Part shown: positions 10,813-23,598 of the stretch, piece by piece
Position numbering within the stretch: the first letter of the stretch is position 1
Layout: each line of letters begins with the position of its first letter
Assembly (NCBI RefSeq): GCF_900172265.1
Contig: NZ_FWFK01000010.1
Span: 1 to 63,916 of the forward strand
DNA from: Roseivivax jejudonensis
GTDB taxonomy: Bacteria > Pseudomonadota > Alphaproteobacteria > Rhodobacterales > Rhodobacteraceae
Reading direction: 5' to 3'
DNA length: 63,916 nt
The notes under the pieces: generated by a model
The model's database searches: none
What the model was told of the DNA's origin: nothing
Seen by the model: the letters and a program-made list of their open reading frames with translations, nothing else
Translations under genes and position numbers: made by a program

Positions 10813-12237
10813 ATGACGCAGGCGGATCCGACCTATTTCAACGAGATGCTGAACGGCTCGGATGTCCGGGCGGCGTACGAGAGCCTCGAGCGATGGCAGG
10901 CGGCCATGCCCGCGGATCTCAGATCGCTGAAACAGCACGAGGCCGAACAACTGTTCCGGAGGGTCGGAATCACCTTCGCGGTGTATGGCGAGGGCGGGGA
11001 TCCCGAGCGGCTCATTCCCTTCGACATGTTCCCACGCGTCTTTACCGCGGAGGAATGGCGCAAGCTCGACCGCGGGATCCGCCAGCGCGCAGCGGCGCTC
11101 AACGCGTTCCTCGCCGACGTCTACGACCGCGGCGAGATCCTTCGCGCGGGCCGCATTCCCGAACACCTCGTCACCCATAACGAGGCTTTCGAGAAGGCGG
11201 TCGTCGGCATGCGTCCGTCGCGCAACGTCTGGAGCCACATCGTCGGCATCGACCTCGTGCGGACCGGCCGCGACCAGTTCTACGTCCTCGAGGACAATTG
11301 CCGCACCCCCTCCGGTGTGAGCTACATGCTGCAGAACCGCGAGATCATGATGCGGATGTTCCCGCAGCTTTTCCTCGAGAACCGGATCGCCCCGGTCGAC
11401 GGCTACGCCGCGGCGCTCAAGCGCACGCTCGTCTCGGTCGCGCCGCCGAAATGCGACGGCACGCCCAACGTCGTCATCCTGACCCCGGGACAGTTCAACT
11501 CGGCCTATTACGAACACTCGTTTCTCGCCGATCTGATGGGCGTCGAGCTTGTCGAGGGGCAGGATCTGTTCGTGGATGGCGATTTCGTGTGGATGAAGAC
11601 CACCGAGGGGCCGCAGAAGGTCGACGTGATCTATCGCCGGATCGACGATGCCTTCCTCGATCCGCTGTGTTTCCGGTCCGACTCGATGCTGGGCGTGCCG
11701 GGCCTGATGAACGTCTACCGGTCGGGCGGAGTGTCGATCTGTTCGGCCCCCGGCGCGGGCGTGGCCGACGACAAAGCGATCTACACCTTCGTGCCGGAGA
11801 TGGTGCGCTTCTACCTCGGCGAGGCCCCGGTCCTCGAGAACGTGCCGACATGGCAATGCGCCAAGCCCGACCAGTGCAAGTACGTGATCGAGAACCTCGC
11901 GGAACTGGTGGTCAAGGAAGTGCACGGCTCGGGCGGCTACGGAATGCTGGTTGGGCCGAAGGCGGACAAGAGCCAGCTCGAGGCGTTCCGCGCCAAGATC
12001 GAGGCGCGCCCCGAGAACTACATCGCCCAGCCCACGCTCGCCCTGTCTACGGTGCCGACCTTCGTCGACGAGGGCGTGGCGCCGCGCCACGTGGATCTGC
12101 GGCCATACTGTCTCGTCGGCGAAAAGATCGAGCTCGTGCCCGGCGGACTGACCCGCGTCGCGCTGAACGAGGGGTCGCTCGTCGTGAACTCCAGCCAGGG
12201 CGGCGGGGTCAAGGATACGTGGGTTCTGGCGGAGTGA
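10813..12237 (+). CDS. Circularly permuted ATP-grasp protein
   Basis: 474 aa. Belongs to the CP_ATPgrasp family (formerly DUF404/DUF407), whose ATP-grasp domain has swapped halves. Landmarks: LVTHNEAFEKAVVGMRP, FYVLEDNCRTPSGVSYML, the nucleotide-contacting VVILTPGQFNSAYYEHSFLA, VDVIYRRIDDAFLDPL, and the glycine-rich loop VKEVHGSGGYGMLVGPKA. Such proteins are predicted to ligate amino acids or peptides with ATP, but no substrate is established. It heads a four-gene operon with an alpha-E protein, a transglutaminase and Anbu. Start ATG at 10813, with GGGGGCAG 5 nt upstream. Confidence 0.9.
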   Translation: MTQADPTYFNEMLNGSDVRAAYESLERWQAAMPADLRSLKQHEAEQLFRRVGITFAVYGEGGDPERLIPFDMFPRVFTAEEWRKLDRGIRQRAAALNAFLADVYDRGEILRAGRIPEHLVTHNEAFEKAVVGMRPSRNVWSHIVGIDLVRTGRDQFYVLEDNCRTPSGVSYMLQNREIMMRMFPQLFLENRIAPVDGYAAALKRTLVSVAPPKCDGTPNVVILTPGQFNSAYYEHSFLADLMGVELVEGQDLFVDGDFVWMKTTEGPQKVDVIYRRIDDAFLDPLCFRSDSMLGVPGLMNVYRSGGVSICSAPGAGVADDKAIYTFVPEMVRFYLGEAPVLENVPTWQCAKPDQCKYVIENLAELVVKEVHGSGGYGMLVGPKADKSQLEAFRAKIEARPENYIAQPTLALSTVPTFVDEGVAPRHVDLRPYCLVGEKIELVPGGLTRVALNEGSLVVNSSQGGGVKDTWVLAE

Positions 12238-12244
12238 CGACGAC

Positions 12245-13198
12245 ATGCTGAGCCGGACGGCCTCTCATCTCTACTGGATGGCCCGCTACATCGAGCGGGC
12301 CGAGACGACCGCGCGACTGATGCAGGTCGGCGCGCGCAACGCGCTCCTGCCGGATATCGGTGGCGGCTACCGCAACGACTGGGAGGCGATCCTGCAGGCG
12401 TCCGGTTCGCTGGAGCCATTCCGCGAGAAATACGGCGAGACCAAGCAGCGCAACCTCGAGACGTTCCTGTTCTTCGACGAGGAGAACCCGGCGTCGGTGC
12501 GCTCCTGTCTCGCGCGGGCGCGCGAGAACGCGCGCGTCGTGCGCACGGCGCTGACCTCGCAGACCTGGGACGCGATGAACTCCACGTTCCAGGAGCTGAA
12601 CCAGCTTCACCGGACGGAACGGTCCAAGCTGTCGCTGACCGACCTTGCCGAATGGACATCGAACGCCTGCGCCCTCGCGCGGGGCTCCATCGAGGCGACG
12701 CAGTTGCGCAACGACGGCTTCCACTTCATGGGGCTGGGCTTCACGCTCGAACGGGCGGACAACACCGCCCGGCTGCTCGACGTGAAATACTACGTGCTGC
12801 TGCCCTCGCTGACCTATGTCGGCTCGGGTCTCGACCAGACGCAATGGGTCACGCTGCTGCGCTCGATGTCGGCGCACCGGGCGTTTCAATGGACCTATCG
12901 GGGCGAGATCACTGCCGCCCGCATCGCGCATTTTCTCATTCTGAACAGGCAGTTCCCGCGGTCACTTCTGACCGCGGTGCAGGGCACGTGCGACAATCTC
13001 GATCATCTCGCCCGCGGCTACCAGAACCCGAGCGAGGCGCAGTCCGCCGCCCGCCGGATCCTCGCCGAATTGGCCGAGGCGCGCGTCGAGGACATTTTCG
13101 ACGAGGGGCTGCACGAATTCCTCACCCGGTTCATGCGTCAGAACGCGGGGATCGCCGGGATCGTGCAGGACACCTACCTGACCGGAGAGCCGGCATGA
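12245..13198 (+). CDS. Alpha-E domain protein
   Basis: 317 aa. Opens with MLSRTASHLYWMARYIERAE, the hallmark of the all-helical alpha-E family (formerly DUF403). Other family stretches: GFHFMGLGFTLERADNTARL and LDVKYYVLLPS; it is rich in helices with Arg/Glu pairs and has no signal peptide. In other genomes it is nearly always next to, or fused with, the ATP-grasp protein, and it is thought to bind the substrate or product of that enzyme; its activity is unknown. It starts 7 bp after the ATP-grasp stop and overlaps the transglutaminase gene by 4 bp. Confidence 0.9.
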   Translation: MLSRTASHLYWMARYIERAETTARLMQVGARNALLPDIGGGYRNDWEAILQASGSLEPFREKYGETKQRNLETFLFFDEENPASVRSCLARARENARVVRTALTSQTWDAMNSTFQELNQLHRTERSKLSLTDLAEWTSNACALARGSIEATQLRNDGFHFMGLGFTLERADNTARLLDVKYYVLLPSLTYVGSGLDQTQWVTLLRSMSAHRAFQWTYRGEITAARIAHFLILNRQFPRSLLTAVQGTCDNLDHLARGYQNPSEAQSAARRILAELAEARVEDIFDEGLHEFLTRFMRQNAGIAGIVQDTYLTGEPA

Positions 13199-14034
13199 AG
13201 CTCCGCATCCGCCATGTCTCCACCTTCGCATTCGACGCGCCGGTCAAACGGCTCGTCCAGTCGCACCGGCTCAGCCCGACGGACACGGCGAGCCAGCGCA
13301 TTATGGCGTGGAACGTCGATACCGGTCCGGCCTCGATCGGGGCGGCCTTTCGCGACGGTGCGGGCGACTGGACGCAGACAGTGAGCCTGCGCGGTCCGCT
13401 CGAGACCTTCACGGTGACGGTCGAGGGCGAAGTGGAGACGCAGGACCAGTCGGGCGTGCTGCGCGGTCATCGCGAGCACGTGCCGCCCTCGGCATACCTC
13501 ACCAGCACCCGCCGAACCGCGCTGACCGCCGAACTTCGCGGTCTCGCCGCGGAGGCGTCGGAGGGCACCGCGCCAGGCCGGTCGCTCGATCGGGCGCATG
13601 CGCTCTGCCGGGCGGTGCACGACGCGGTGGCCTACGTTCCCGGCAGCACCGAGGCCGCCACCACCGCATCCGAGGCGCTGGAGGGCGGGCGCGGGGTCTG
13701 CCAGGATCACGCGCAGGTTCTGATCGCGCTGGCCCATGCCTGCGAGATTCCGGCGCGCTACGTCGCCGGATACCTGATGAGCACCGAGGACAGCGTGGGC
13801 GCCGAGGCCAGCCACGCCTGGGCGGAGCTTCATGTCGACGGGCTCGGCTGGGTCGGATTCGACGCGGCCAATGCGTGCTGCCCCGATGCGCGCTACGTGC
13901 GGCTCTGCTCGGGATACGATGCCGCGGACGGCGCGCCCATTCGCGGCGTGATCGACGGCGCCGCCGAAGAGTCTCTCGACGTGTCGGTGGCGGTCCTGCG
14001 CGACGGTCAATCCCAAAGCCAGAGCCAGGGCTGA
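13195..14034 (+). CDS. Transglutaminase-family protein
   Basis: 279 aa. N-terminal beta domain (residues about 1-110, MKLRIRHVSTFAFDAPVKRL) then a transglutaminase-like papain-fold core with a complete triad: Cys in GGRGVCQDHAQVLIAL, His in EASHAWAELHV and Asp in GWVGFDAANA. The family includes peptidases and amidases that act on peptides or isopeptides. Translationally coupled (ATGA) to the alpha-E gene. In this operon it may cleave or transfer a peptide tag built by the ATP-grasp enzyme; this is inference. The C-terminus ends in a short Gln-Ser repeat. Confidence 0.9.
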   Translation: MKLRIRHVSTFAFDAPVKRLVQSHRLSPTDTASQRIMAWNVDTGPASIGAAFRDGAGDWTQTVSLRGPLETFTVTVEGEVETQDQSGVLRGHREHVPPSAYLTSTRRTALTAELRGLAAEASEGTAPGRSLDRAHALCRAVHDAVAYVPGSTEAATTASEALEGGRGVCQDHAQVLIALAHACEIPARYVAGYLMSTEDSVGAEASHAWAELHVDGLGWVGFDAANACCPDARYVRLCSGYDAADGAPIRGVIDGAAEESLDVSVAVLRDGQSQSQSQG

Positions 14035-14171
14035 CGGCCGGGGCCGTGTCCGCTGTGGCGTGACGCGGTGCTTCGGCGGCCGCGTGCACGCGCCCGATTG
14101 CCGAACGCCGCGAGAGAGCCTAGCTGTGGTCGGGCGTGGGCGAGCGCCCGCCAGTCTTGGGAAGGATCGAC

Positions 14172-14900
14172 ATGACCTATTGCGTGGGCCTGCTGCTCAA
14201 GGCGGGCATCGTGCTTCTGTCCGACACGCGCACCAATGCCGGGCTCGACAACATCGCGACCTTCCGCAAGATGTTCACCTTCGTCGCCCCGGGCGAACGG
14301 GTGATCGCGATCATGACCGCGGGGTCGCTGTCGGTGACGCAGACGACGTTGGCGCGGCTGTCGGACGCCGTCGAGAACCCGGAGAGCGACGAGCACAGTT
14401 CCATCCTCAAGGCGCCATCGATGCTGAAGGTCGCCGAGATGATCGGCGCAACCCTGTCGGAGGTCCGCGCGGAAATTTCGGACAAGATGGACCGCATGAA
14501 GCAGTCCGCATCGGCCTCGCTGATCGTGGCGGGGCAGCGCAAGGGCGGACCGATGCGGATGTTCCTCGTCTATCCCGAGGGCAACTTCATCGAGGCGACC
14601 GAGGACACGCCCTACCTGCAGATCGGCGAGCACAAGTACGGCAAGCCGATCCTCGACCGGGTCATCACGCCGGAGACCTCGCTCGTCGATGCCGAAAAGG
14701 CGGTGCTCCTGTCGATGGATTCGACCCTTCGCTCCAACCTGTCGGTCGGGATGCCGCTCGACCTCGCGGTGATCGAGGCCGGCGGCCTCGAGATCGCCAA
14801 GTCGCGTCGGATCGAGGCCGAGGACGAAGGCTTTTCGCGCATGAGCCGCGCGTGGTCGGACGCGCTGCGCGACGCGTTCCAGCGCATCGACCCGGCCTGA
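14172..14900 (+). CDS. Proteasome-type protease Anbu
   Basis: 242 aa. Anbu is a bacterial relative of the 20S proteasome beta subunit and of HslV that forms ring or helical assemblies. The N-terminal MTYCVGLLLKAG places a Thr at position 2 as the presumed nucleophile after Met removal; VLLSDTRTNAGLDNIATFRK supplies the Asp and Lys of the active site. The rest keeps the family layout with SASLIVAGQRKGG in the middle and LDLAVIEAGGL near the end. It follows the transglutaminase gene by 137 bp, has GGAAGGA as ribosome site, and ends 13 bp before the convergent RibD-like gene. Confidence 0.92.
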   Translation: MTYCVGLLLKAGIVLLSDTRTNAGLDNIATFRKMFTFVAPGERVIAIMTAGSLSVTQTTLARLSDAVENPESDEHSSILKAPSMLKVAEMIGATLSEVRAEISDKMDRMKQSASASLIVAGQRKGGPMRMFLVYPEGNFIEATEDTPYLQIGEHKYGKPILDRVITPETSLVDAEKAVLLSMDSTLRSNLSVGMPLDLAVIEAGGLEIAKSRRIEAEDEGFSRMSRAWSDALRDAFQRIDPA

Positions 14901-14913
14901 GGCCGCGGTCGCA

Positions 14914-15741
14914 TCAGACTTGAGAGGCGCGCGCCTCCGGGACGTGCACGGGCTGCGTCGCGATCATCGCCGCCTCGGTCAGGCCGCAGTCGAACACGAC
15001 GTCGGACCCGAGCGGAAAGACCCGTGTGTCCGGGCGGATCGCGTCGGACAGTCGCTCGGTCGGACTCGGCATTGTCAGGCCCTGCGGCCCGCCACCGATC
15101 AGCAGCGGCGCGATCGCGACCTGGAGGCGCGTCAGCAATCCCGCCTCGAGGAAGCGGGAGATGGTGATGCCGCCGCCTTCGACCAGCAGCGAGGACAGCC
15201 CCGCGTCGTTCAATGCGGAGACGATCTCGACCGGGTCGAGCCCGGTGTCGCGCGCCTTGAGGCGGATTACTTCCACGCCGTCGGGGCGCGGGCGGTCGAC
15301 CGCCTGCACAACGATGCTGCGCGCGCCGTCGCGCTTGAGCACCGGCGCATCGTCCGGCAGCCGGCCCTTGGGGTCGATCACGACGCGCGTCGGGTGGCGT
15401 CCGTTGCATAGCCGGACCGTCAGGCGCGGGGTGTCGTGCAGCGCGGTGCGCACGCCGATCACCACGCCGTCGACCAGTGCGCGCATTCGGTGAAGGTGCG
15501 CCAGGCCGTCAGGGCCCGAAACGTCGCGCGCGTCGCCAGTGACCGTGGCCACCCGGCCGTCCAGCGATTGTCCGATCTGCGCGACCGTCATCGGGCCCAC
15601 GTCGCGACGCGCGAGCGGGCCGTAGAGATCGAGCGCGGCGCGTTCGCCCGCGCTCCATCGGCCGCAGCAGGTGCAGGCGGCGCCGTGGCGCACAGCCAGC
15701 AGCCGTTCCCAGACCCGTGGGGTGACGTCAACGCAGTGCAT
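14914..15741 (-). CDS. RibD C-terminal-type reductase
   Basis: 275 aa. Residues about 50-260 are the dihydrofolate-reductase-fold domain found at the C-terminus of RibD, which reduces ribosylaminopyrimidines with NADPH: IGQSLDGRVAT, RMRALVDGVVIGVRTALHD, LLVEGGGITISRFLEAGLL, IAPLLIGGG. The deaminase half of RibD is missing; instead there is a 48-residue leader with a CTCC cluster. It is the last gene of a tight five-gene operon headed by GTP cyclohydrolase II, so the substrate is probably a GTP-derived pyrimidine or pteridine. It overlaps the methyltransferase gene by 14 bp. A riboflavin role is possible but the missing deaminase argues for another product. Confidence 0.85.
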   Translation of the reverse strand: MHCVDVTPRVWERLLAVRHGAACTCCGRWSAGERAALDLYGPLARRDVGPMTVAQIGQSLDGRVATVTGDARDVSGPDGLAHLHRMRALVDGVVIGVRTALHDTPRLTVRLCNGRHPTRVVIDPKGRLPDDAPVLKRDGARSIVVQAVDRPRPDGVEVIRLKARDTGLDPVEIVSALNDAGLSSLLVEGGGITISRFLEAGLLTRLQVAIAPLLIGGGPQGLTMPSPTERLSDAIRPDTRVFPLGSDVVFDCGLTEAAMIATQPVHVPEARASQV

Positions 15742-16516
15742 GGCGCTCCTCCTTCGGGGTCCCGCGCGGCACGGCGAGGATATCGCCGTGTCCGATCAGG
15801 CAGGTCGTCTCGGTCGATCGTTCGATCCGCAGCGCGCCCCAATCGTCGGCCTCGGGCATGCCGGCCTCTCCGGCGGCGCGCGCGATCCCCTCTACCAGCA
15901 TGCGCTGGAGCGGGGCTGCGTCGGGGCCGAGCCGCCAGCGGCTGTCGGCCTGGCTGACCTCGAACCCGGCGTCGCGCAACACCGCGACGCTGCGCGTGAC
16001 GGCATCGGGGCCGAGTGCGGGGCCAAGCCCCTTGTCGCCCCTCTGATGACGGTTGAAGGCATCGGTCACCGCCGCGTCGCGCGGATCTTCGAGCGTCCAG
16101 CGCATGGCGCCATCGTAGGACAGCGCGGCGTATAGCGGCACCCCGAGCCGGGAGGCGAGATCGCGGACCCACGTTTCCGGGACGAGATCGAACAGCGCCG
16201 ACGCGGTCACGAGCGTCACGCCGTCGAGTGGCAGCGCGTCGAGATCGGCGATGTCGGTGCAGAAGGTTTCTGCCCGGGGGCCGGCCGCCGCCTTCGCGAG
16301 GTCCAGCAGCTCCGGATCGTTGTCGACCAGACGCCAGCGCGTGCCCTCCGGCAGGTAGGGCGCCATCGTTCGCACGGTCGAGCCGCTGCCGCATCCGAGA
16401 TCGAGGATCACCGGCGCGGGGCCGGCCGCCGCCGCGGCCCTGTGCAGCAGCACGTCGTCGCGGGCCGCCCGGTCGGCGGGTTCGCGCAGGGACAGCCAGT
16501 CGGCGGAAAAACTCAT
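15728..16516 (-). CDS. Class I SAM-dependent methyltransferase
   Basis: 262 aa, soluble. Motif I VILDLGCGSGSTVRTMAPYL near residue 37, acidic loop LVDNDPELLDLA, then TLVTASALFDLVPETWV as motifs III-IV. Substrate cannot be read from sequence. Its place between the PTPS-fold gene and the RibD-type reductase, with 1 bp and overlapping junctions, suggests that it methylates the operon's small-molecule product. The final residues are charged and probably disordered. Confidence 0.83.
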   Translation of the reverse strand: MSFSADWLSLREPADRAARDDVLLHRAAAAAGPAPVILDLGCGSGSTVRTMAPYLPEGTRWRLVDNDPELLDLAKAAAGPRAETFCTDIADLDALPLDGVTLVTASALFDLVPETWVRDLASRLGVPLYAALSYDGAMRWTLEDPRDAAVTDAFNRHQRGDKGLGPALGPDAVTRSVAVLRDAGFEVSQADSRWRLGPDAAPLQRMLVEGIARAAGEAGMPEADDWGALRIERSTETTCLIGHGDILAVPRGTPKEERHALR

Positions 16517-16517
16517 C

Positions 16518-16913
16518 TCAGATCTCGTCCTCGAACCAGGCGCGGGCCACGTGGCTTTCGTGCAGCAGGATCCGCAGGCGTTTCACCCGGCCGCCGTCGT
16601 TCAGCGCGCCGCTGCGCACCTTTTCCGCCATGCGCGCGAAGATGTGCCCGCACAGGAATTCGGTCGTTGTGAACTTTCCCTTGAATTCAGGTACTTCGTC
16701 GAGGTTCTTGTAGCGTAGCGGCCCGAGCACCTCGTTCAGCGCTTCGGTGGCGAGGCCGATATCGACCACGAGGCCATGATCGTCGATGTCGTTCGTGAAG
16801 AAGGCGGCATCGACCGTGAACGTGGCACCGTGCATCCCTTGCGCGGGTCCGAAAACCTCGGAAGGCAGCGAGTGTCCGATCATGATGTGGTCTGTGACTT
16901 CGACGGCGAACAT
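16518..16913 (-). CDS. PTPS-fold protein (6-pyruvoyl-tetrahydropterin synthase family), catalytically degenerate
   Basis: 131 aa, the usual length of a PTPS/QueD subunit (T-fold). Canonical enzymes bind zinc through three His and act with a Cys-Asp-His triad. Here His14 and His28 are kept, but the second His of HGH is Ala30 (MHGAT); the Cys four residues before the motif is Ala24; and the LDHKNLD motif reads LRYKNLD (residues 66-72), losing both Asp and His. TTTEF and the pterin-anchoring Glu in LLHESHVARAWF remain. So the pterin-binding fold is probably intact while the standard chemistry is not. It sits between the dehydrogenase and methyltransferase genes of the operon. Confidence 0.85.
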   Translation of the reverse strand: MFAVEVTDHIMIGHSLPSEVFGPAQGMHGATFTVDAAFFTNDIDDHGLVVDIGLATEALNEVLGPLRYKNLDEVPEFKGKFTTTEFLCGHIFARMAEKVRSGALNDGGRVKRLRILLHESHVARAWFEDEI

Positions 16914-16923
16914 GGATGGTCCC

Positions 16924-17877
16924 TCAGGTCGTTTTGTATTTGATACGGTGGCAGAGCGTCGCCGGATCCATCAGGATCGCGCCGTAACGCTCTGGAAGCG
17001 CTTCGAATTCCGTCTCTCCGGAAATCAGGACGTCCAGCGCGGGATCGTGCAGCAGGTCGAGCGCCGTCGCCAACCGACGCGCATGGTCCCAGCGCGGACC
17101 GCGCATTGCCGGCAGGTGCCCGACCTGCGAACTGACGAGGCGCAGGCGGCGCGAGTGGAAGGCGCCGCCGAGTGCGACGGGCACCGTGCCTGCGCCGTAC
17201 CAGCTCGCCTCGACGATCGTTGCCTCGAAACCTGCGCAATCGAGCGCGGTGTCGAGGCCGTCTGCCGTGGCCGTCGCATGGATCACCACGTCGCAGTCTC
17301 GCGGTGCGGCATCCGGTGCCGCGAAGGCGCAGCCGAGTGAATCCGCGAGCGATGCGCGCGCTGCGTTCACGTCGACGATCGTCACCGCGGCTCCCGGCAG
17401 ACGCGCGGCGAGATAGGCGACGAGCGCGCCGACGACACCGGCCCCGATCACAGCCACGCGGTCACCAGCGGCGGCGCCGCTGTCCCACAGCACGTTGAGC
17501 GCGGTTTCCATGTTCGAGGTCAGAACGGCCCGGTCCGGCGGCACGGCCTCGGGCAGCGGCGTCAGCATCGTCTCTGGTGCGCGGAAACGGGTCTGGTGCG
17601 GCTGGAGCGCGAACACCGTACGTCCCGCGAACGCACCTTCGGCCGGGCGGCCGACCGCGCAATATCCGTACTTCACCGGGAACGGGAACGCCCCTTCCTG
17701 CGCGGGCGCGCGCATGCGGTCGGCCTCGCTCTCGGGCACGCGCCCTTCGAAGACCAGCCGCTCCGTGCCCCGGCTTATGCCGGAGAACAGCGTCTCGACC
17801 AGCACACCGTCGCCCTCCGCGCCGGGGCCGAGCGCGGCCTCGCGCGGGGCCACGCACCACAGGGCGGTCGCGCTCAT
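16924..17877 (-). CDS. MDR-family dehydrogenase, zinc-dehydrogenase related
   Basis: 317 aa. Medium-chain dehydrogenase/reductase: N-terminal GroES-like part (LFSGISRGTERLVFEGRV, FPVKYGYCAVGRP), then a Rossmann domain with AVIGAGVVGALVAYLAA and acidic TIVDVN. The catalytic-zinc GHE motif is not evident, so it may be a non-zinc member. Close relatives, as I recall, sit in the same gene set in other alphaproteobacteria. It overlaps the GTP cyclohydrolase II stop by 4 bp, so it is co-translated with it. The frame is open upstream, but this ATG (17875-17877) is the only one giving a family-like N-terminus. Confidence 0.82.
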   Translation of the reverse strand: MSATALWCVAPREAALGPGAEGDGVLVETLFSGISRGTERLVFEGRVPESEADRMRAPAQEGAFPFPVKYGYCAVGRPAEGAFAGRTVFALQPHQTRFRAPETMLTPLPEAVPPDRAVLTSNMETALNVLWDSGAAAGDRVAVIGAGVVGALVAYLAARLPGAAVTIVDVNAARASLADSLGCAFAAPDAAPRDCDVVIHATATADGLDTALDCAGFEATIVEASWYGAGTVPVALGGAFHSRRLRLVSSQVGHLPAMRGPRWDHARRLATALDLLHDPALDVLISGETEFEALPERYGAILMDPATLCHRIKYKTT

Positions 17878-19034
17878 GTGAAGATGTGCCCCGACTTTGC
17901 CGCCTTGGTCGCGAGGTAACGCTCGTTCTGCGGCGTGCGACCGGCCTGAAGCGGCACCCGTTCGACCACGTCCACCCCGTGCCGGGTCAGGATGTCGACC
18001 TTGCGAGGGTTGTTCGTCATCAGGCGCACGCGCTGGATCCCGAGCCGAGCGAGCATCTGCGCACCAGTGCGGAAGTCGCGCAGATCGTCGTCGAAGCCGA
18101 GCCACTGGTTCGCCTCGACGGTGTCGAGACCGGAATCCTGCAGCGCGTAGGCCCGCATCTTGTTCGCGAGCCCGATCCCGCGGCCCTCCTGGTTGAGGTA
18201 GAGCAGCACGCCGCCATCACCCCCGGCCATCGCAGCCATCGCGGCATGAAGCTGCGGTCCGCAATCGCACTTGAGGCTGCCGAGAACGTCGCCGGTGAAG
18301 CAGGCCGAGTGGAGCCGCACGAGCACCGGCTGCGACAGATCCGGCGTGCCGACCTCGATTGCCGAATGCTCGATGCCGCCATCTTCGGGACGGAAGACAT
18401 GCACGCGCCCGGCATCGGAGGCCGCCATCGGCAGCGGGGCGGAGCTCACGCGGTCGTGGTGCGCGCCAGCGGCGAGCGTGTCCGTCACCTCGTGCGCCTG
18501 CATGACAGTGAGGCCGAGGCTGAGCGCCAGGTCCGGGCCCTCGCGAAGCGGCACGATCACCGCCGCCGGCAACACCTGCGCCGACTGTGCGAGCGTCGTG
18601 GCCGCCCGGTGGATGGCCGAGCCCGAGGCGAGGGGCGGCAGCGGGCAGGGCGTGGCGCCCGAATCCGCGACGCCGCCGGCCTGCGTCGTGATCCAGTCCA
18701 GCCCGGCAGTGGGCGGCAGGGCGGCCCGCAGCACGTCGCCCGGCGGCATCGCGATGCTGCCGAGCGCGCGTGCGCGGTGCCGGGTCAGCGCAAGCTCAGC
18801 CCGGCCCATCGCCGCAAGGGCAGCGAAGCGGTCCTCGGTCAGGGTTTCGGCCCAGGCGACCAGCGCGGCCTCGCCGTGATCGAGCAGGATCACCGGCAGC
18901 CCGAGACGCAGATCGCCCTTGAGCCGCATCAGCCGCTCGGACGCGCGCGGCGCCAGCGCCACGGGAAGAGTGGCCGTCTCGGGGCCGGCGGTCAGGTCAG
19001 GGCCGTCGATGGCGGCGGAGCGGAGTGGGCGCAA
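17874..19034 (-). CDS. GTP cyclohydrolase II with degenerate RibB-like N-terminal half
   Basis: 386 aa. Residues about 195-386 are GTP cyclohydrolase II, which opens GTP to 2,5-diamino-6-ribosylaminopyrimidinone phosphate: zinc cysteines in CFTGDVLGSLKCDCG, then YLNQEGRGIGLANKMRAYAL, DTVEAN and LMTNNPRKVDIL. Residues 1-190 resemble a worn-down 3,4-dihydroxybutanone-phosphate synthase: a GLPVILLD stretch and a PLREG stretch fit, but the acidic catalytic loop DDEDREN is absent. First gene of the operon. It could serve riboflavin synthesis (ribA), yet its partners suggest another GTP-derived product, so no symbol is given. Confidence 0.86.
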   Translation of the reverse strand: MRPLRSAAIDGPDLTAGPETATLPVALAPRASERLMRLKGDLRLGLPVILLDHGEAALVAWAETLTEDRFAALAAMGRAELALTRHRARALGSIAMPPGDVLRAALPPTAGLDWITTQAGGVADSGATPCPLPPLASGSAIHRAATTLAQSAQVLPAAVIVPLREGPDLALSLGLTVMQAHEVTDTLAAGAHHDRVSSAPLPMAASDAGRVHVFRPEDGGIEHSAIEVGTPDLSQPVLVRLHSACFTGDVLGSLKCDCGPQLHAAMAAMAGGDGGVLLYLNQEGRGIGLANKMRAYALQDSGLDTVEANQWLGFDDDLRDFRTGAQMLARLGIQRVRLMTNNPRKVDILTRHGVDVVERVPLQAGRTPQNERYLATKAAKSGHIFT

Positions 19035-19166
19035 GGTCAGAATCCCGTTTTCCGGTCTGGTAGGCGAGACTTAGGTCGCGACGGGCCGAGGCAAGAGGCG
19101 ACGGCTTAACTCCGCCTGCGGCTGGATCGGCGGCGGGGCGCGCTAGGTCTGCGTCAGGCATCGCAA

Positions 19167-19907
19167 ATGAGGCAGGACATGGACCGCTGGCTGGGACTCC
19201 TTCGATCACTGGTGATCTATCACAAGCCCGCGACCCGGCGCGCATGGCGCCAGTTTTACGCCGAGATCCTGTCCGACGGCGATCTCGCCTTCGACGTCGG
19301 CGCGCATGTCGGCACGCGGGCGCGGGCCATGAGGGCGGCCGGTGCGCGGGTCGTCGCGCTGGAGCCGCAGGCGCTGTTCGCGCGGTTCCTGCGCCGGACG
19401 CTGCCGCGGGACATCACGCTGATCGAGGCCGCCGCCGGCGGCGCCGAGAGCGAGGCTGTGATGGCGGTGTCGTCGCGCCATCCGACGGTGTCGTCGCTTC
19501 ATGCGGATTTCGTCTCCGGCGCCGCCAGTGCGCCCGGCTTCGGCCACGTCCGCTGGGACAGCGAACAGAAGGTGCAAGTGGTTACGCTCGACGGGCTGAT
19601 CGCCGCGCATGGCCTGCCCGATTACGTAAAGATCGACGTGGAGGGGTTCGAACTCGACGTGCTTGCGGGCCTGTCGCAGCCGGTGCCGCTCCTGTCGGTC
19701 GAGTTTCTTCCGGGCTTTCCGGATCTCACGCTGCGGGTGATGGACCGGCTGGCGGAGATCGGGGACTATCGCTTCAACCCGATCGTGGGGGAGGGCGGAC
19801 GCTTTCTCTGGTCCGACTGGCGGGATGGCTCGGCGGTCGCCGAATGGCTGTCCGGGCTGCCGCCGGAGTCGGAGTCGGGTGACCTGTTCGCGCGCCTCTC
19901 GCGCTGA
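19167..19907 (+). CDS. FkbM-family SAM methyltransferase
   Basis: 246 aa. SAM-binding core with LAFDVGAHVGTRARAMRAAG and VVALEPQ, followed by the FkbM signature LPDYVKIDVEGFELDVLAG and VPLLSVEFLPG. FkbM-type enzymes O-methylate sugars or natural products. It is divergent from the GTP cyclohydrolase II gene (132 bp apart) and converges on the inositol-phosphatase-family gene. A second in-frame ATG at 19179 (MDRWLG) is an equally good start and would shorten the product by four residues. Confidence 0.83.
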   Translation: MRQDMDRWLGLLRSLVIYHKPATRRAWRQFYAEILSDGDLAFDVGAHVGTRARAMRAAGARVVALEPQALFARFLRRTLPRDITLIEAAAGGAESEAVMAVSSRHPTVSSLHADFVSGAASAPGFGHVRWDSEQKVQVVTLDGLIAAHGLPDYVKIDVEGFELDVLAGLSQPVPLLSVEFLPGFPDLTLRVMDRLAEIGDYRFNPIVGEGGRFLWSDWRDGSAVAEWLSGLPPESESGDLFARLSR

Positions 19908-19916
19908 CGGCGCGCG

Positions 19917-20702
19917 TCAGGCCGCGCGCAGGATCGCCGCGAACTCCCCGAAAAGGGTCGGGGTCGCCGCGATCACCGTTCCGCTGGTCTCTGGCCTGTC
20001 GTCGGGGCTCCAGCCCTCCACCGTGACGCCGGCGGCGCGCAGGATCACGAGGCCGGCGGCGATATCCCACTGCTGCAGCCGCCGCTCCCAGAAGCCGTCG
20101 ATCCGACCGGCCGCGAGCCAGGCAAGATCGAGCGCCGCCGCGCCCATACGCCGCACCCCGGCGCAAGCCGGCATCAACCGGGCGATGTCTGCCGCGTGAT
20201 CGTCGATATGCGGCATCGTGCCGAACGGAATCCCCGTGCCGAAGAGCGCGGTGCCGAGCTGACCGGTCTGCGAGGGCTGCAGGGGATCGCCATTCAACAC
20301 CGCCTCGCGGCCGGCGCGCGCTGCGAACGTCTCGCCGCGCAGCGGGTCGTGGATCACGCCGATTGTGCGAACGCCTTCGACCTCCAGCGTGACAGATACC
20401 GCCCAGTGGGGGATGCCGCGCAGGAAGTTCGTGGTCCCGTCGAGCGGGTCGACGATCCAGCGACGCTGCGCCGTGCCTGCCGCGCCGGTTTCCTCCCCCA
20501 GCCAGCCGTCGTCGGGCCGCGCCGCGGCAAGGCGCGCGCGCAGGTGTCGCTCGGAGGCGAGATCGGCCTCGCTCGCGAAATCGCCCGCACGCTTCTCGGT
20601 CACCGTCAGACGGTCGCGCGCCTGCCAGTGTCCGAGCAGGATCTCGCCCGCCTCGATCGCGGCGTCCCGCGCGAGGCTGAGGTCGTTGTCCTCGCCGGTC
20701 AC
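19917..20702 (-). CDS. Inositol monophosphatase family protein
   Basis: 261 aa. Metal-dependent phosphomonoesterase of the IMPase/CysQ/FBPase superfamily with full metal-binding motifs: LGEETG, RRWIVDPLDGTTNFLRGIP and QWDIAAGLVILRAAG. Substrates in the family include inositol-1-phosphate, PAP and sugar phosphates; none can be assigned here. It overlaps the GT4 gene by 4 bp, suggesting that it dephosphorylates a product or precursor of that glycosyltransferase. Confidence 0.88.
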   Translation of the reverse strand: MTGEDNDLSLARDAAIEAGEILLGHWQARDRLTVTEKRAGDFASEADLASERHLRARLAAARPDDGWLGEETGAAGTAQRRWIVDPLDGTTNFLRGIPHWAVSVTLEVEGVRTIGVIHDPLRGETFAARAGREAVLNGDPLQPSQTGQLGTALFGTGIPFGTMPHIDDHAADIARLMPACAGVRRMGAAALDLAWLAAGRIDGFWERRLQQWDIAAGLVILRAAGVTVEGWSPDDRPETSGTVIAATPTLFGEFAAILRAA

Positions 20703-21751
20703 GGCGTTACCCGGTCGAGCACGGCGGCGACGGTTGCCGCCGTATCGTCCCAGGCGGGCAGGGCGGCGCCCGCGCGTGCGGCGCCGTCGGCCAGTGTCTT
20801 GCGATGCGCGGGGTCGGTCAGCAGGCGACGCAGCGCGTCCGCGACGGCGTCCACGTCCTCGACCGGAACCAGAACCCCGGCGTCGCCCGGAACCGTGCCC
20901 GGAACCGCGCCGGTGTCGCAGCTCACGATCGGCAAGCCGTAGGCCATGGCCTCGTCGAAGACGATGCCATAGCCCTCGTAGCGGGTGGCGAGCGCAAAGA
21001 TCGAGGCCCGCGCGTAGAACGAATCCAGCGTGTCGCGGTCGACCCGCCCGGCGAAGGTAACGCGATCATCGAGGCCCGACGCAGCCTTCAGCCGGTCGAG
21101 TTCGGCGGCATGGTCCGCGTCGTGGACGCCACCGGCGATCACGGCCTGCCAGTCGAGATCGGTCAGCCGTGACAGCGCGCGCAGGAGCACGTCGTGACCC
21201 TTGCGCCGAACGCGGATCCCCACGGACAGGATGAGCGGCGGGTCGGCGGGCGCGCCAACGCCCGCCGGTCGGTCGGTTCCGGGGCGCGCCACGGTGATCG
21301 CCGCCGCCGGCACGCCGTAGTCGGCCGCGAGAAGGTCCGCCGTATGCGGGCTCGTCACCACGACAGCGGACGCACGCTCTAGAATCGCGCGCTCGGTCTC
21401 GAAGAGATGGGCCCGCCGCGCCTCGGGCAGCCCGCCTTCGTGCGCGAGAGGGTGATGCACCATCGCCACCAGCGGTGCCGCCATGCCGTCGAGCGCGTGG
21501 ACGGGAAGCGCCCCGAGCGCGAGCCCGTCGACCAGGACAGGGCAATCTGCGGGCAGGGCCGCCAGGCGCGCCGCGGCATCCGCGATCTCCGCCGCGCTCG
21601 GATCGGGAAAACCGGCCCCCAGCTCGATGAGCGCCACGTCGCGGCCCGCCGACCGCAGCCCGTCGAGAAGGCGCCGGTCGTAGATGTAGCCGCCGGTCAG
21701 CGTGGTGATGTCGCCGGGAACGGCGAGGGCGGCGCGGCGGGGGCGTGTCAT
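20699..21751 (-). CDS. Glycosyltransferase family 4
   Basis: 350 aa. GT-B fold: an N-terminal half with VPGDITTLTGGYIYDRRLL and a histidine-containing VAMVHHPLAHEGG, and a C-terminal nucleotide-sugar domain with ILSVGIRVRRKGHDVLLRAL and the E-x7-E motif EGYGIVFDEAMAYGLPIVSC. Probably retaining and cytoplasmic. The ATG at 21749-21751 is preferred; a longer start would add residues not seen in GT4 proteins. It could belong to the exopolysaccharide locus on its right or to the GTP-derived pathway on its left. Confidence 0.86.
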   Translation of the reverse strand: MTRPRRAALAVPGDITTLTGGYIYDRRLLDGLRSAGRDVALIELGAGFPDPSAAEIADAAARLAALPADCPVLVDGLALGALPVHALDGMAAPLVAMVHHPLAHEGGLPEARRAHLFETERAILERASAVVVTSPHTADLLAADYGVPAAAITVARPGTDRPAGVGAPADPPLILSVGIRVRRKGHDVLLRALSRLTDLDWQAVIAGGVHDADHAAELDRLKAASGLDDRVTFAGRVDRDTLDSFYARASIFALATRYEGYGIVFDEAMAYGLPIVSCDTGAVPGTVPGDAGVLVPVEDVDAVADALRRLLTDPAHRKTLADGAARAGAALPAWDDTAATVAAVLDRVTP

Positions 21752-21863
21752 GGTGGTCGTCGGCTTTCCGGTCAAGGGCTGGCGCACAGCGCCTCCGTTC
21801 GGCGCTCCAGATGGCGCGCGGCGGCCGGCGGGCAAGCGCTTCGGCTGTGGCTAGCGCACGTGG

Positions 21864-22400
21864 CTAGCGCACGGCTCTCTCGACGATGGACGCCGGCACC
21901 TCGACCCGCGTCGCCTGTCCCATGAGGTCGATCAGCAGGCGCAGGCGCTGGTCCGAGGTCAGGTCCTCGACCCGCGCGACGATATCCGCAAACGGACCGG
22001 ACAGGATCCGGATCTCGTCTCCAACCGCGATGCGATCCGGCTCCTGAAGCGTACCGGAGCCGTCGCATCTTGCGCGGAGCCCTTCGATGAAGCCTTCGGG
22101 AAGGGCGCGCGGGCGGCGCGGATCGGACACCACGAGCCGGGTGATTCCGCGGGTCGCGTTGATCGCGCGCCAGGAATCGCCGGCCGGATCGAAGCGCACG
22201 AATACGTAGCCCGGAAAGAGCGGCCTTTCGCCCGTCCGCATGCCGTGGGCGCTGCGCGTCGACACCGTGAGCAGCGGCGCGAAATGCTCGAACTTCTGCC
22301 GCGTCAGGTTCGTGCGCGCAATGCGGAGCGCGTTCGGTTTGACCTGCGCCGCATACCAGCCCGCTTTGCGGGTCGCCGCATCGAGAACGATTTCGGGCAT
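21864..22400 (-). CDS. NusG/RfaH-like transcription antitermination factor
   Basis: 178 aa, as expected for a specialised NusG paralogue. The NGN domain shows GWYAAQVKPNALRIARTNLT and ERPLFPGYVFVRFD; the C-terminus keeps a KOW-like VGDEIRILSGPFADIVARVE. Such paralogues load onto RNA polymerase at the start of long polysaccharide operons and suppress termination and polarity. Its place beside the exopolysaccharide genes fits. It is not the housekeeping nusG, which normally lies with secE and rplK. The ATG at 22398-22400 fits the NGN start; an earlier in-frame ATG has no family support. Confidence 0.85.
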   Translation of the reverse strand: MPEIVLDAATRKAGWYAAQVKPNALRIARTNLTRQKFEHFAPLLTVSTRSAHGMRTGERPLFPGYVFVRFDPAGDSWRAINATRGITRLVVSDPRRPRALPEGFIEGLRARCDGSGTLQEPDRIAVGDEIRILSGPFADIVARVEDLTSDQRLRLLIDLMGQATRVEVPASIVERAVR

Positions 22401-22599
22401 TCCTGGATCACCGTTTTGCTGTCCGCCGCGACGGGTAGTGCATCGCCGCTGCCGATCCAAGGCGAGGGGCATTCAATTAAACGTTTCATCGCGACGTGCG
22501 CGTCATTCCGCGTGTGATTCAGGCAACGGAAAGACTTCGGGCCTAGCGTGTCGCGGCGCCCCGGGGGTGGGGTGCGTCGATCTACCTGGAGTATCCAAG

Positions 22600-23064
22600 A
22601 TGGTTGCTTTCGCAGTCGCGAAAGCGTGTCGAGCCGCTGTGCTCGGCGCGCTTCTCGCTGTCGTGCCGGCCGTCGGCATGGCGGCGCAGGCCAAGACGAC
22701 GAGGATCGTCATTTCCGACGATCGGGGTGGGCTGGTGCATACGCGCGCACAAGATGTCGCGCGGATCCGGGCCCGGGGACAGACCGTGGCGATATCCGGC
22801 CGCGTCTGCCTTTCGTCTTGTACGATGTATCTCGGGGCCGGGGACGTGTGCGTCCGGCCCGACGTCACCTTCGGCTTTCACGGGCCCAGTTACTACGGTC
22901 GCCGGCTCAGCCAACACGACTTCGACTACTGGAGCGCCGTGATTTCAAGCCATTACCCGCCGGCATTGCGGAAATGGTACATGCAGAAGGCGCGCTTCCG
23001 CCTGCGCGGGTTCTACAGGATCTCGGGCCGCCAGCTGATCGCCATGGGCGTGCCCGAGTGCTGA
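22600..23064 (+). CDS. Exported ClpP-like (COG3904-type) protein
   Basis: 154 aa. Signal peptide at residues 1-29 (ending GMAAQA). The mature part has a region resembling ClpP-fold periplasmic proteins: AISGRVCLSSCTMYLGAGDV followed by FGFHGPSYYGRR, where Ser in SSCT and His in FHGPS would take the positions of a ClpP-type Ser-His pair. The Asp is unclear. Four Cys could form disulfides. It is the only plus-strand gene in this part of the exopolysaccharide locus. Function unknown; assignment to the fold is by motif only. Confidence 0.68.
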   Translation: MVAFAVAKACRAAVLGALLAVVPAVGMAAQAKTTRIVISDDRGGLVHTRAQDVARIRARGQTVAISGRVCLSSCTMYLGAGDVCVRPDVTFGFHGPSYYGRRLSQHDFDYWSAVISSHYPPALRKWYMQKARFRLRGFYRISGRQLIAMGVPEC

Positions 23065-23096
23065 AGACACGCTGAGCGTGGCGCTATGCGCCGCGC

Positions 23097-23456
23097 TCAG
23101 TTCGTGCCGCTGGTGCTGGAAGTCGAGGATGTGTTCGACGTGCCGCCGCCGTTGCCGCCAGCCGCGGCCAGAGCGCCGGCTGCCGCAACGCCGCCCAGGA
23201 TCGGGGCGAGGCCACCGAAGAGCGGCGCGACGTTCGTCGCCGCACCGGCGGCACCGGCCGGCACCGCGGCGCCCGCGATCTCGTCGTCGCTGCAGGTCAC
23301 CTCGAGACGGCTGTCTTCGAGCCAGCGGGCGGACGCGACGGCGCGGTCCTCGCACACGTTCAGGCGTTCGGCAGCCGCGACCGGGGATTCCGGTGCCGCA
23401 GACATGGCCGGCGTGGCCAGAGCGCAAACAATGGCGAAACTCGCGAGGGTCTTCAT
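23097..23456 (-). CDS. GfcA/YjbE-like small exported Gly/Ser/Thr-rich protein
   Basis: 119 aa. Signal peptide at residues 1-20 (ending AMSA); a central part with two Cys (NVCEDR, VTCSDDE); an Ala/Gly/Pro-rich hydrophobic stretch; and a C-terminal low-complexity tail of Gly, Ser, Asn and Thr (GGNGGGTSNTSSTSSTSGTN). That tail resembles the end of Escherichia coli YjbE/GfcA, the small first protein of group-4-capsule and Yjb operons. GfcB-, GfcD- and Wza-like genes lie upstream on the same strand. The two-Cys part is not found in YjbE as I recall it. Confidence 0.6.
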   Translation of the reverse strand: MKTLASFAIVCALATPAMSAAPESPVAAAERLNVCEDRAVASARWLEDSRLEVTCSDDEIAGAAVPAGAAGAATNVAPLFGGLAPILGGVAAAGALAAAGGNGGGTSNTSSTSSTSGTN

Positions 23457-23572
23457 TTGATACTCCACTCGAAATGCTGCCCCGACACGTAACGCAATTT
23501 CCGGCCTCGGACCAGAAAAGGCTTCAAATTGCGCGAATAAATTTCGCGTATCGGCCTGCGATGCCCGGAAGG

Positions 23573-23594
23573 ACGGCCACCCGGGGGCGGCCGT
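23573..23594 (-). terminator. Weak GC hairpin after the Wzc-like gene
   Basis: ACGGCC (23573-23578) pairs with GGCCGT (23589-23594) across a 10-nt loop just past the stop of the autokinase gene. There is no clear T-run, and the GfcA-like gene follows on the same strand, so it may attenuate more than end transcription. Confidence 0.3.
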
Positions 23595-23598
23595 GCCA

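Follow-up and report, generated by a model that had tools for sequence, protein, structure and literature searches.

The window analysed here, a stretch of 63,916 nucleotides of the Rhodobacteraceae bacterium Roseivivax jejudonensis (contig NZ_FWFK01000010.1, positions 1 to 63,916), carries on its minus strand a five-gene operon encoding GTP cyclohydrolase II (RibA), an oxidoreductase of the MDR superfamily, a PTPS-fold protein of the PTPS-IV subfamily, a SAM-dependent methyltransferase and a RibD_C reductase. We give even chances to the view that this operon forms one half, the biosynthetic one, of a two-part pathway, in which GTP would be converted to a methylated pterin-like compound that is glycosylated and that can be imported elsewhere. 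Judged by their distribution, the genes seem to fall into a biosynthetic part (RibA, RibD_C, MDR, PTPS-IV, methyltransferase and probably an IMPase-family phosphatase) and a shared part led by a GT4-family glycosyltransferase, with an ABC importer replacing the former in some genomes. The operon thus probably makes a methylated pterin-like compound, which some other species import and on which GT4 acts. A sequence-only reading of this DNA had proposed that a GTP-derived, reduced, methylated pyrimidine or pteridine is made, and this proposal is supported and survives every test run.

The distribution was followed in 149 genomes of the same family, one per genus, 13 of which contain PTPS-IV. A search with the sulfatase-family protein found near the set matched 20 of the 149 genomes, 14 of them without PTPS-IV, and the surroundings of the sulfatase gene were read for 13 of these 14 (G147 offered only a 3.5-kb piece). 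An ABC importer, which consists of an NMT1/THI5-like binding protein, an ATPase and a fused permease, lies in the same stretch as the sulfatase gene in 10 of the 13 genomes, and GT4 is also there in nine; G018, G065 and G094 have neither importer nor GT4 in that stretch. Genome-wide, the binding protein is present in 13 of the 149 genomes at a cut of at least 499 bits (70-100% identity), which was picked after the gap to the next score of 289 was visible. The GT4 cut (E <= 1e-40), by comparison, was fixed before the search, and at this cut GT4 is found in 26 genomes: every one of the 13 PTPS-IV genomes and of the 13 importer genomes (one genome being common to both), together with G147, which is 73% complete and has the sulfatase gene. 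The 26 GT4 genomes are therefore the 25 with either route plus G147 (Fisher 1.6e-27, uncorrected for relatedness). GT4 had been seen beside most of these routes before the genome-wide search, and what the search newly adds is mainly that GT4 is present in the importer genomes G011 and G125 and that, of the 124 genomes without either route, 123 lack it.

No genome with PTPS-IV plus an intact importer was found among the 149. In G063, the sole genome with both routes, a stop interrupts the binding protein and the permease is broken (L203 11946-14781), defects for which sequencing errors are possible, and its GT4, the only copy at the cut, is open, with the flippase and sulfatase-family genes matching in single pieces. 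In the other ten importer loci, the importer genes have no stops in the matched stretches. These 11 importer loci were selected by the sulfatase-family gene, and ten are from PTPS-IV-negative genomes; GT4 is present in ten, a flippase in nine and a cytochrome b in nine, while RibA, MDR, methyltransferase and RibD_C are each absent from all 11. FkbM occurs in one of the 11, and IMPase has one match (L201), about 2 kb past the permease and on the other strand. The best solved relative of the binding protein binds formylaminopyrimidine (3ix1, E 3.7e-8). Since the importer stands with the same GT4 in species without the biosynthetic genes, the aglycone is probably diffusible and vitamin-like.

The genes are also linked far beyond the window. 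Among genome contigs, at least 452 candidate stretches encode a PTPS-IV relative, of which the best 80 were kept, and PTPS-IV was detected in 20 of 72,556 plasmid records. The resulting neighbourhood sample of 124 loci (121 distinct), which leans to close relatives of the window, includes 107 loci in which PTPS-IV is flanked by 4 kb or more on each side, and neighbours were counted in these at over 60 bits. Within 5 kb of PTPS-IV, MDR is present in 103 of the 107 loci, the methyltransferase in 101, RibD_C in 88 and RibA in 50, and all five genes stand together in 43. The conserved co-occurrence on which the sequence-only reading depended is thus present, and the recurrent linkage of MDR, methyltransferase, RibD_C and RibA in 107 distinct loci indicates that the clustering is not due to chance. 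Within 10 kb the counts are MDR 103, methyltransferase 101, RibD_C 91, GT4 87, FkbM 57, RibA 51, IMPase 49 and creatininase 5, where GT4 and IMPase are broad families. In annotated Hyphomicrobiales and actinobacterial sets, GT4 follows directly after PTPS-IV and precedes the methyltransferase, and this position supports GT4 as a core member. The earlier reading had described a set of five genes; all five are real, but the set is larger, as GT4 and the IMPase-family phosphatase also belong to it.

The suggested recurrence in other alphaproteobacteria was borne out for Rhodobacterales and Hyphomicrobiales, and the set also occurs in one gammaproteobacterium and in actinobacteria, annotated examples being Palleronia, Agrobacterium, Rhizobium, Methylosinus, Thiodictyon (the gammaproteobacterium), Streptomyces and Microbacterium. 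In a phylum sample, 71 of 398 genomes match PTPS-IV at E <= 0.001, with 27 of these (R. jejudonensis included) scoring 112 bits or more; the remaining 44, all below 37 bits, are probably ordinary PTPS/QueD proteins. Three loci titled as actinobacterial metagenome-assembled genomes (L050, L051 and L068; Aquiluna, Micrococcales) have a Rhodobacterales-like gene order and a PTPS-IV 73-79% identical to that of the window, and they are possibly misbinned contigs. Two Streptomyces plasmids carry PTPS-IV without the rest of the set (L143 12001-12399, L144 12001-12426), near cupin, MEKHLA-domain and BTAD-regulator genes. No phage carriage was found.

The features of the locus are given in the table below. 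All five open reading frames lie where they had been placed, tightly packed on the minus strand with intergenic distances of -4, +10, +1 and -14 bp in the order of transcription, that is, with gaps of no more than 10 bp or overlaps. The family identities also hold, with four Pfam matches over cut-off and a weaker annotation for MDR. Upstream of the operon, the GT4 and IMPase genes share a 4-bp overlap, and 882 bp separate the RibA and IMPase genes, with the divergent FkbM methyltransferase inside.

Features of the operon and its upstream neighbours in the window (positions are those of the window)
Product	Positions	Strand	Domain evidence
RibD_C reductase without deaminase domain	14914-15741	-	PF01872 125 bits, over cut-off; sole Pfam domain
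Class I SAM-dependent methyltransferase	15728-16516	-	PF13649 37.1 bits, over cut-off
PTPS-IV T-fold protein	16518-16913	-	PF01242 74.2 bits, over cut-off
MDR-superfamily oxidoreductase, BchC-like, probably zinc-free	16924-17877	-	PF00107 26.1 bits, below the 31.8 cut-off
RibA, GTP cyclohydrolase II, TTG start	17874-19034	-	PF00925 200.7 bits, over cut-off
FkbM-family methyltransferase, frequent neighbour, membership uncertain	19167-19907	+	PF05050 58 bits
IMPase-family phosphatase	19917-20702	-	PF00459 198 bits
GT4-family glycosyltransferase	20699-21835	-	PF00534 113.4 bits

Just upstream of the GT4 gene and on the same strand is a gene for a NusG-domain protein (PF02357, 21864-22472, minus strand). 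A run of plus-strand genes at 10813-14900 adjoins the operon and is convergent with it; this run includes an Alpha-E protein (12245-13198) and a proteasome-type protease (14136-14900), as well as ATP-grasp-like (10813-12237) and transglutaminase-like (about 13220-14034) genes, which were named from reading the letters only.

RibA would be the entry step from GTP. In this protein, PF00925 spans residues 195-361 after an N-terminal extension of about 190 aa, the score against TIGR00505 is 210.8 (cut-off 205.85), and the nearest solved structure is the GTP cyclohydrolase II 2bz0. C245, C256 and C258, which we take to be the zinc ligands, and Tyr296, presumably the active-site residue, are present and kept in relatives, as expected of a GTP cyclohydrolase II. 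The active-site Tyr is found in 53 of 55 cluster RibA rows (one, L097, is a poorly aligned fragment), and the other two, both from Streptomyces, have Met. A creatininase homologue accompanies both Met-type RibA proteins (L142 15645-17138; L153 about 16336-17867), a pairing that would fit a formylated pyrimidine being made and then separately deformylated. As a strict signature of such a formylated intermediate (FAPy), however, creatininase with an altered RibA was rejected, since among the 55 RibA rows only two of the four clusters with both genes show it.

For RibD_C, the Pfam scan found no N-terminal deaminase domain, and the score against TIGR00326 is 89.5 bits (cut-off 156.35), below that of the bifunctional RibD. 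Its nearest solved relatives, 2azn and 6p8c, are single-domain reductases, and the latter bears the name 2,5-diamino-6-ribosylamino-4(3H)-pyrimidinone 5'-phosphate reductase. An orthologue is present in 11 of the 13 PTPS-IV genomes and in none of the 136 others, at a cut of at least 154 bits that was picked after the gap to 86 was visible.

The PTPS-IV protein departs from the usual enzymes of its fold. With positions taken from an alignment to PTPS 1b66 and counted over 122 distinct rows, the usual PTPS Cys position is Ala in 120 and Cys in none, the third zinc His position is Ala in 120 and His in none, and the catalytic His position is Tyr in 113 and His in none, while two other His (120 and 121 rows), the TTT-E region and Glu119 (120 rows) are kept. 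We take the catalytic roles of these positions to be those of PTPS, and PTPS-IV presumably keeps the pterin-binding residues. Because none of the 122 rows has the Cys, third zinc His or catalytic His, canonical PTPS or QueD chemistry is predicted to be unlikely. Among solved structures only SCO6650 of Streptomyces coelicolor (3d7j, E 2e-38, residues 1-128) is a strong relative; it is itself without assigned function and is said to lack both zinc and PTPS activity. Window residues 21-25 read FGPAQ, each position being kept in 119-120 of the 122 rows. According to the PTPS-IV section of a 2017 paper (PMC5445326), FGPAQ is the signature of the PTPS-IV subfamily of COG0720 (AGeNNT cluster 62), which has PF00925 and PF01872 as neighbours, and the window has both the signature and these neighbours. 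The same section, which calls PF00925 GTP cyclohydrolase I/FolE2, names no MDR, GT4, importer, membrane genes or product. It also gives CxxxHGH as the motif of QueD and PTPS-I, and here the window reads AQGMHGA.

The MDR protein is less well placed. Its AlphaFold model (pLDDT 90.3) has a confident MDR fold, and it scores 55.6 bits against TIGR01202 (bchC, cut-off 291.25). In Foldseek, idonate, xylitol and sorbitol dehydrogenases and TarJ rank high, with others such as acryloyl-CoA reductase mixed in, at identities of 12-19% over the 50 matches listed, so that the model is only suggestive of a polyol dehydrogenase-like enzyme. In an alignment of 11 members there is no invariant Cys, and SGxSRGTE stands where, judging from the alignment, GxCGSD would be usual; in a second set (n = 17) the sole invariant Cys is C309, near the C-terminus. 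The methyltransferase model is confident (pLDDT 94.8) and its structural neighbours are uninformative. The IMPase-family enzyme is the probable phosphatase of the ribityl phosphate, and in Aquifex an IMP-family phosphatase removes the phosphate from the analogous intermediate of riboflavin synthesis in vitro, though not specifically (PMC12051542).

Taken together, these proteins would allow the following route. RibA would open GTP to 2,5-diamino-6-ribosylamino-4(3H)-pyrimidinone 5'-phosphate, as is established for the family and fits the key residues present. RibD_C may then turn the ribosyl group into a ribityl side chain by reduction, with no deamination, as its nearest solved relatives and the missing deaminase suggest, so that the 2-amino group of a pterin would be kept, and the IMPase-family enzyme would remove the phosphate. 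MDR and PTPS-IV might convert the ribitylamino-pyrimidine to a pterin-like bicycle, which together with methylation is the weakest step. In the simplest closure, the C2' hydroxyl of the side chain would be oxidised to a ketone, which closes on the 5-amino group; the successive action of RibD_C and MDR could equal a stepwise Amadori rearrangement, and closure of the ketone would give a dihydropterin. The SAM enzyme would methylate the bicycle, and GT4 would glycosylate the product, this being the step common to biosynthesis and import. The glycoside may be lipid-linked or exported and may be redox-active, as the often-linked membrane genes suggest.

These membrane genes are, within 10 kb of PTPS-IV, a CDP-alcohol phosphotransferase in 59 of the 107 loci, a sulfatase-family gene in 51, an LPG_TM flippase in 49 and a cytochrome b561 in 44, supported by the domains PF01066, PF00884, PF03706 (LPG_synthase_TM) and PF01292, respectively, and they suggest lipid linkage, export and redox use of the glycoside. 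They were rejected as strict members, the sulfatase being present in 6 of the 13 PTPS-IV genomes and in 14 of the 136 others. In R. jejudonensis the only sulfatase match (42% identity) is on a different contig (C9), where a CDP-alcohol homologue adjoins it, followed by a molybdopterin dehydrogenase subunit, so the part of the membrane genes in this organism is uncertain. An unbiased search for neighbours, with genes named from reading the letters, returned MdoH/OpgH-like genes at 37 loci, endonuclease/exonuclease/phosphatase-like genes at 15 and YceI-like genes at 12. The MdoH/OpgH-like glucosyltransferase frame (L033 2-1120 and 36 other loci; annotated as mdoH in L147) may link the sulfatase-family gene to periplasmic glucans. 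The fullest form of the proposal, which we hold to be improbable, is an unrecognised pterin-type vitamin made without GTP cyclohydrolase I, through GTP cyclohydrolase II, reductive ring opening of the ribosyl by RibD_C, re-oxidation by MDR and PTPS-IV-assisted closure. It would then be glycosylated and, linked to a lipid, displayed or exported to act as a redox cofactor in the periplasm, with cytochrome b561 servicing it, and some species would make it while others import it.

Several observations weigh against a pterin-like compound made by some species and imported by others. The MDR appears, from its alignments, to be without zinc ligands, and double-bond reduction, not alcohol oxidation, is the reaction of many MDR enzymes that lack zinc. 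RibA is near PTPS-IV (within 10 kb) in only 51 of the 107 loci and may often come from another copy. The RibD_C orthologue is absent from PTPS-IV genomes G008 (82% complete) and G017 (97% complete), and the match in G122 contains a stop. The GT4 matches in G008, G035, G101 and G118 were flagged for one stop each in the aligned stretch, of which the G035 gene is open on re-reading. Over the 149 genomes, PTPS-IV and the importer are not significantly exclusive (one overlap, Fisher p = 1.0), zero overlap of intact routes being unlikely only within the 20 sulfatase-positive genomes (P = 0.005), and distant binding-protein homologues of 63-220 bits occur in PTPS-IV loci L051 and L068 and genomes G083 and G118. 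With the sulfatase gene in so few PTPS-IV genomes and in three genomes without GT4, the membrane part is looser. No Rfam match was found in window 13000-24000 or in the loci of seven relatives, so no riboswitch names the compound. Moreover, the ring structure, the sugar, the function and the substrates and activities of the enzymes are all inferred from sequence.

The enzymes at the entry can also be read in other ways. A lumazine- or flavin-like product, in which the ribitylamino-pyrimidine is joined to a separate carbon unit, as happens in riboflavin synthesis, and then methylated and glycosylated, is unlikely on balance, with these points in its favour: GTP cyclohydrolase II with RibD_C is riboflavin logic, GT4 and a phosphodiester would both have a natural acceptor in an 8-ribityl side chain, and no ring-closure role would be required of MDR. 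However, no lumazine or riboflavin synthase is among the scanned operon genes of the window or listed in seven annotated relatives, RibD_C lacks a deaminase, and the PTPS-fold protein with its conserved Glu119 is a constant part of the core. Somewhat less likely still is that the importer carries a different compound, an alternative acceptor for GT4, so that synthesis and import yield different molecules. NMT1/THI5-like proteins bind varied ligands, the solved formylaminopyrimidine-binding relative is distant, and exclusion of the two routes is not significant over the 149 genomes; yet the distribution of GT4 is almost exactly the union of both routes, and no genome has both intact, the importer being broken in G063, where the biosynthetic set is also present.

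Known pathways account for the operon much less readily. The whole R. jejudonensis genome (21 contigs, 99.98% complete) was searched, and three GTP cyclohydrolase II domains were found, in the window and on contigs C16 and C19, together with a second RibD_C domain in a 515-aa frame on C20 (of which only the RibD_C half was looked at) and a lumazine synthase on C19, adjoining the GTP cyclohydrolase II domain. A back-up operon supplying riboflavin or a precursor is very improbable: GTP cyclohydrolase II and RibD_C are riboflavin enzymes and supply paralogues occur in bacteria, but the operon does not hold the sole copies of these genes, and with riboflavin genes elsewhere in the genome and no deaminase in the set, riboflavin supply was rejected; it would also leave MDR, PTPS-IV, methyltransferase and GT4 without a role. 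That the PTPS-fold protein serves to make queuosine, tetrahydrobiopterin, folate or F420, as its family membership would suggest, is hardly credible given the three residues missing from PTPS-IV. Queuosine, already set aside in the sequence-only reading, was rejected because QueC has no match in the genome (the control matches in 12 of 14 genomes) and no second PTPS was found there, the window copy being the only one; FolE and the other folate genes were not searched for. A role of PTPS-IV in F420 synthesis is stated, as unpublished, in PMC5041015, but F420 ligase (PF01996) likewise has no match in the genome (the control matches in 3 of 14 genomes), which speaks against such a role here, and F420 was rejected.

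The statement that no product had been assigned holds in the literature searched: the search, mostly of titles and abstract openings, returned no product for this gene set, and the PTPS-IV/SCO6650 family has a solved structure and no assigned product there, although PTPS-IV had already been linked in print to PF00925 and PF01872 (PMC5445326). Not found in that literature, and new, are the extension of the gene set, the distribution pattern of GT4 and the alternative of import. With GT4 occurring almost exactly where either route does, the family would no longer be an orphan but part of a pathway that has GTP as its defined start, glycosylation as a likely next step and a salvage route that can be tested. 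If true, this would mean that marine and soil bacteria of common kinds exchange a new heterocyclic cofactor or metabolite.

Compared with known systems, the set has the same first chemistry as the riboflavin pathway (RibA, RibD), namely GTP cyclohydrolase II and a ribosyl reductase, but it is without the deaminase and the lumazine or riboflavin synthase and has MDR, PTPS-IV, methyltransferase and GT4 in addition. Limipterin and cyanopterin are bacterial pterin glycosides, in part methylated, whose routes begin with GTP cyclohydrolase I and a true PTPS, neither of which is seen in the set. In the archaeal-type route, FAPy is formed and then separately deformylated by ArfB, a member of the creatininase family. 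BrbF is described as a bacterial alternative (PMC9478397). The two Streptomyces plasmid clusters with a creatininase homologue and a Met-type RibA resemble this route; the link is not strict, as the Tyr is kept in two of the four clusters with creatininase and RibA, and the window differs in that its RibA has Tyr and no creatininase accompanies it.

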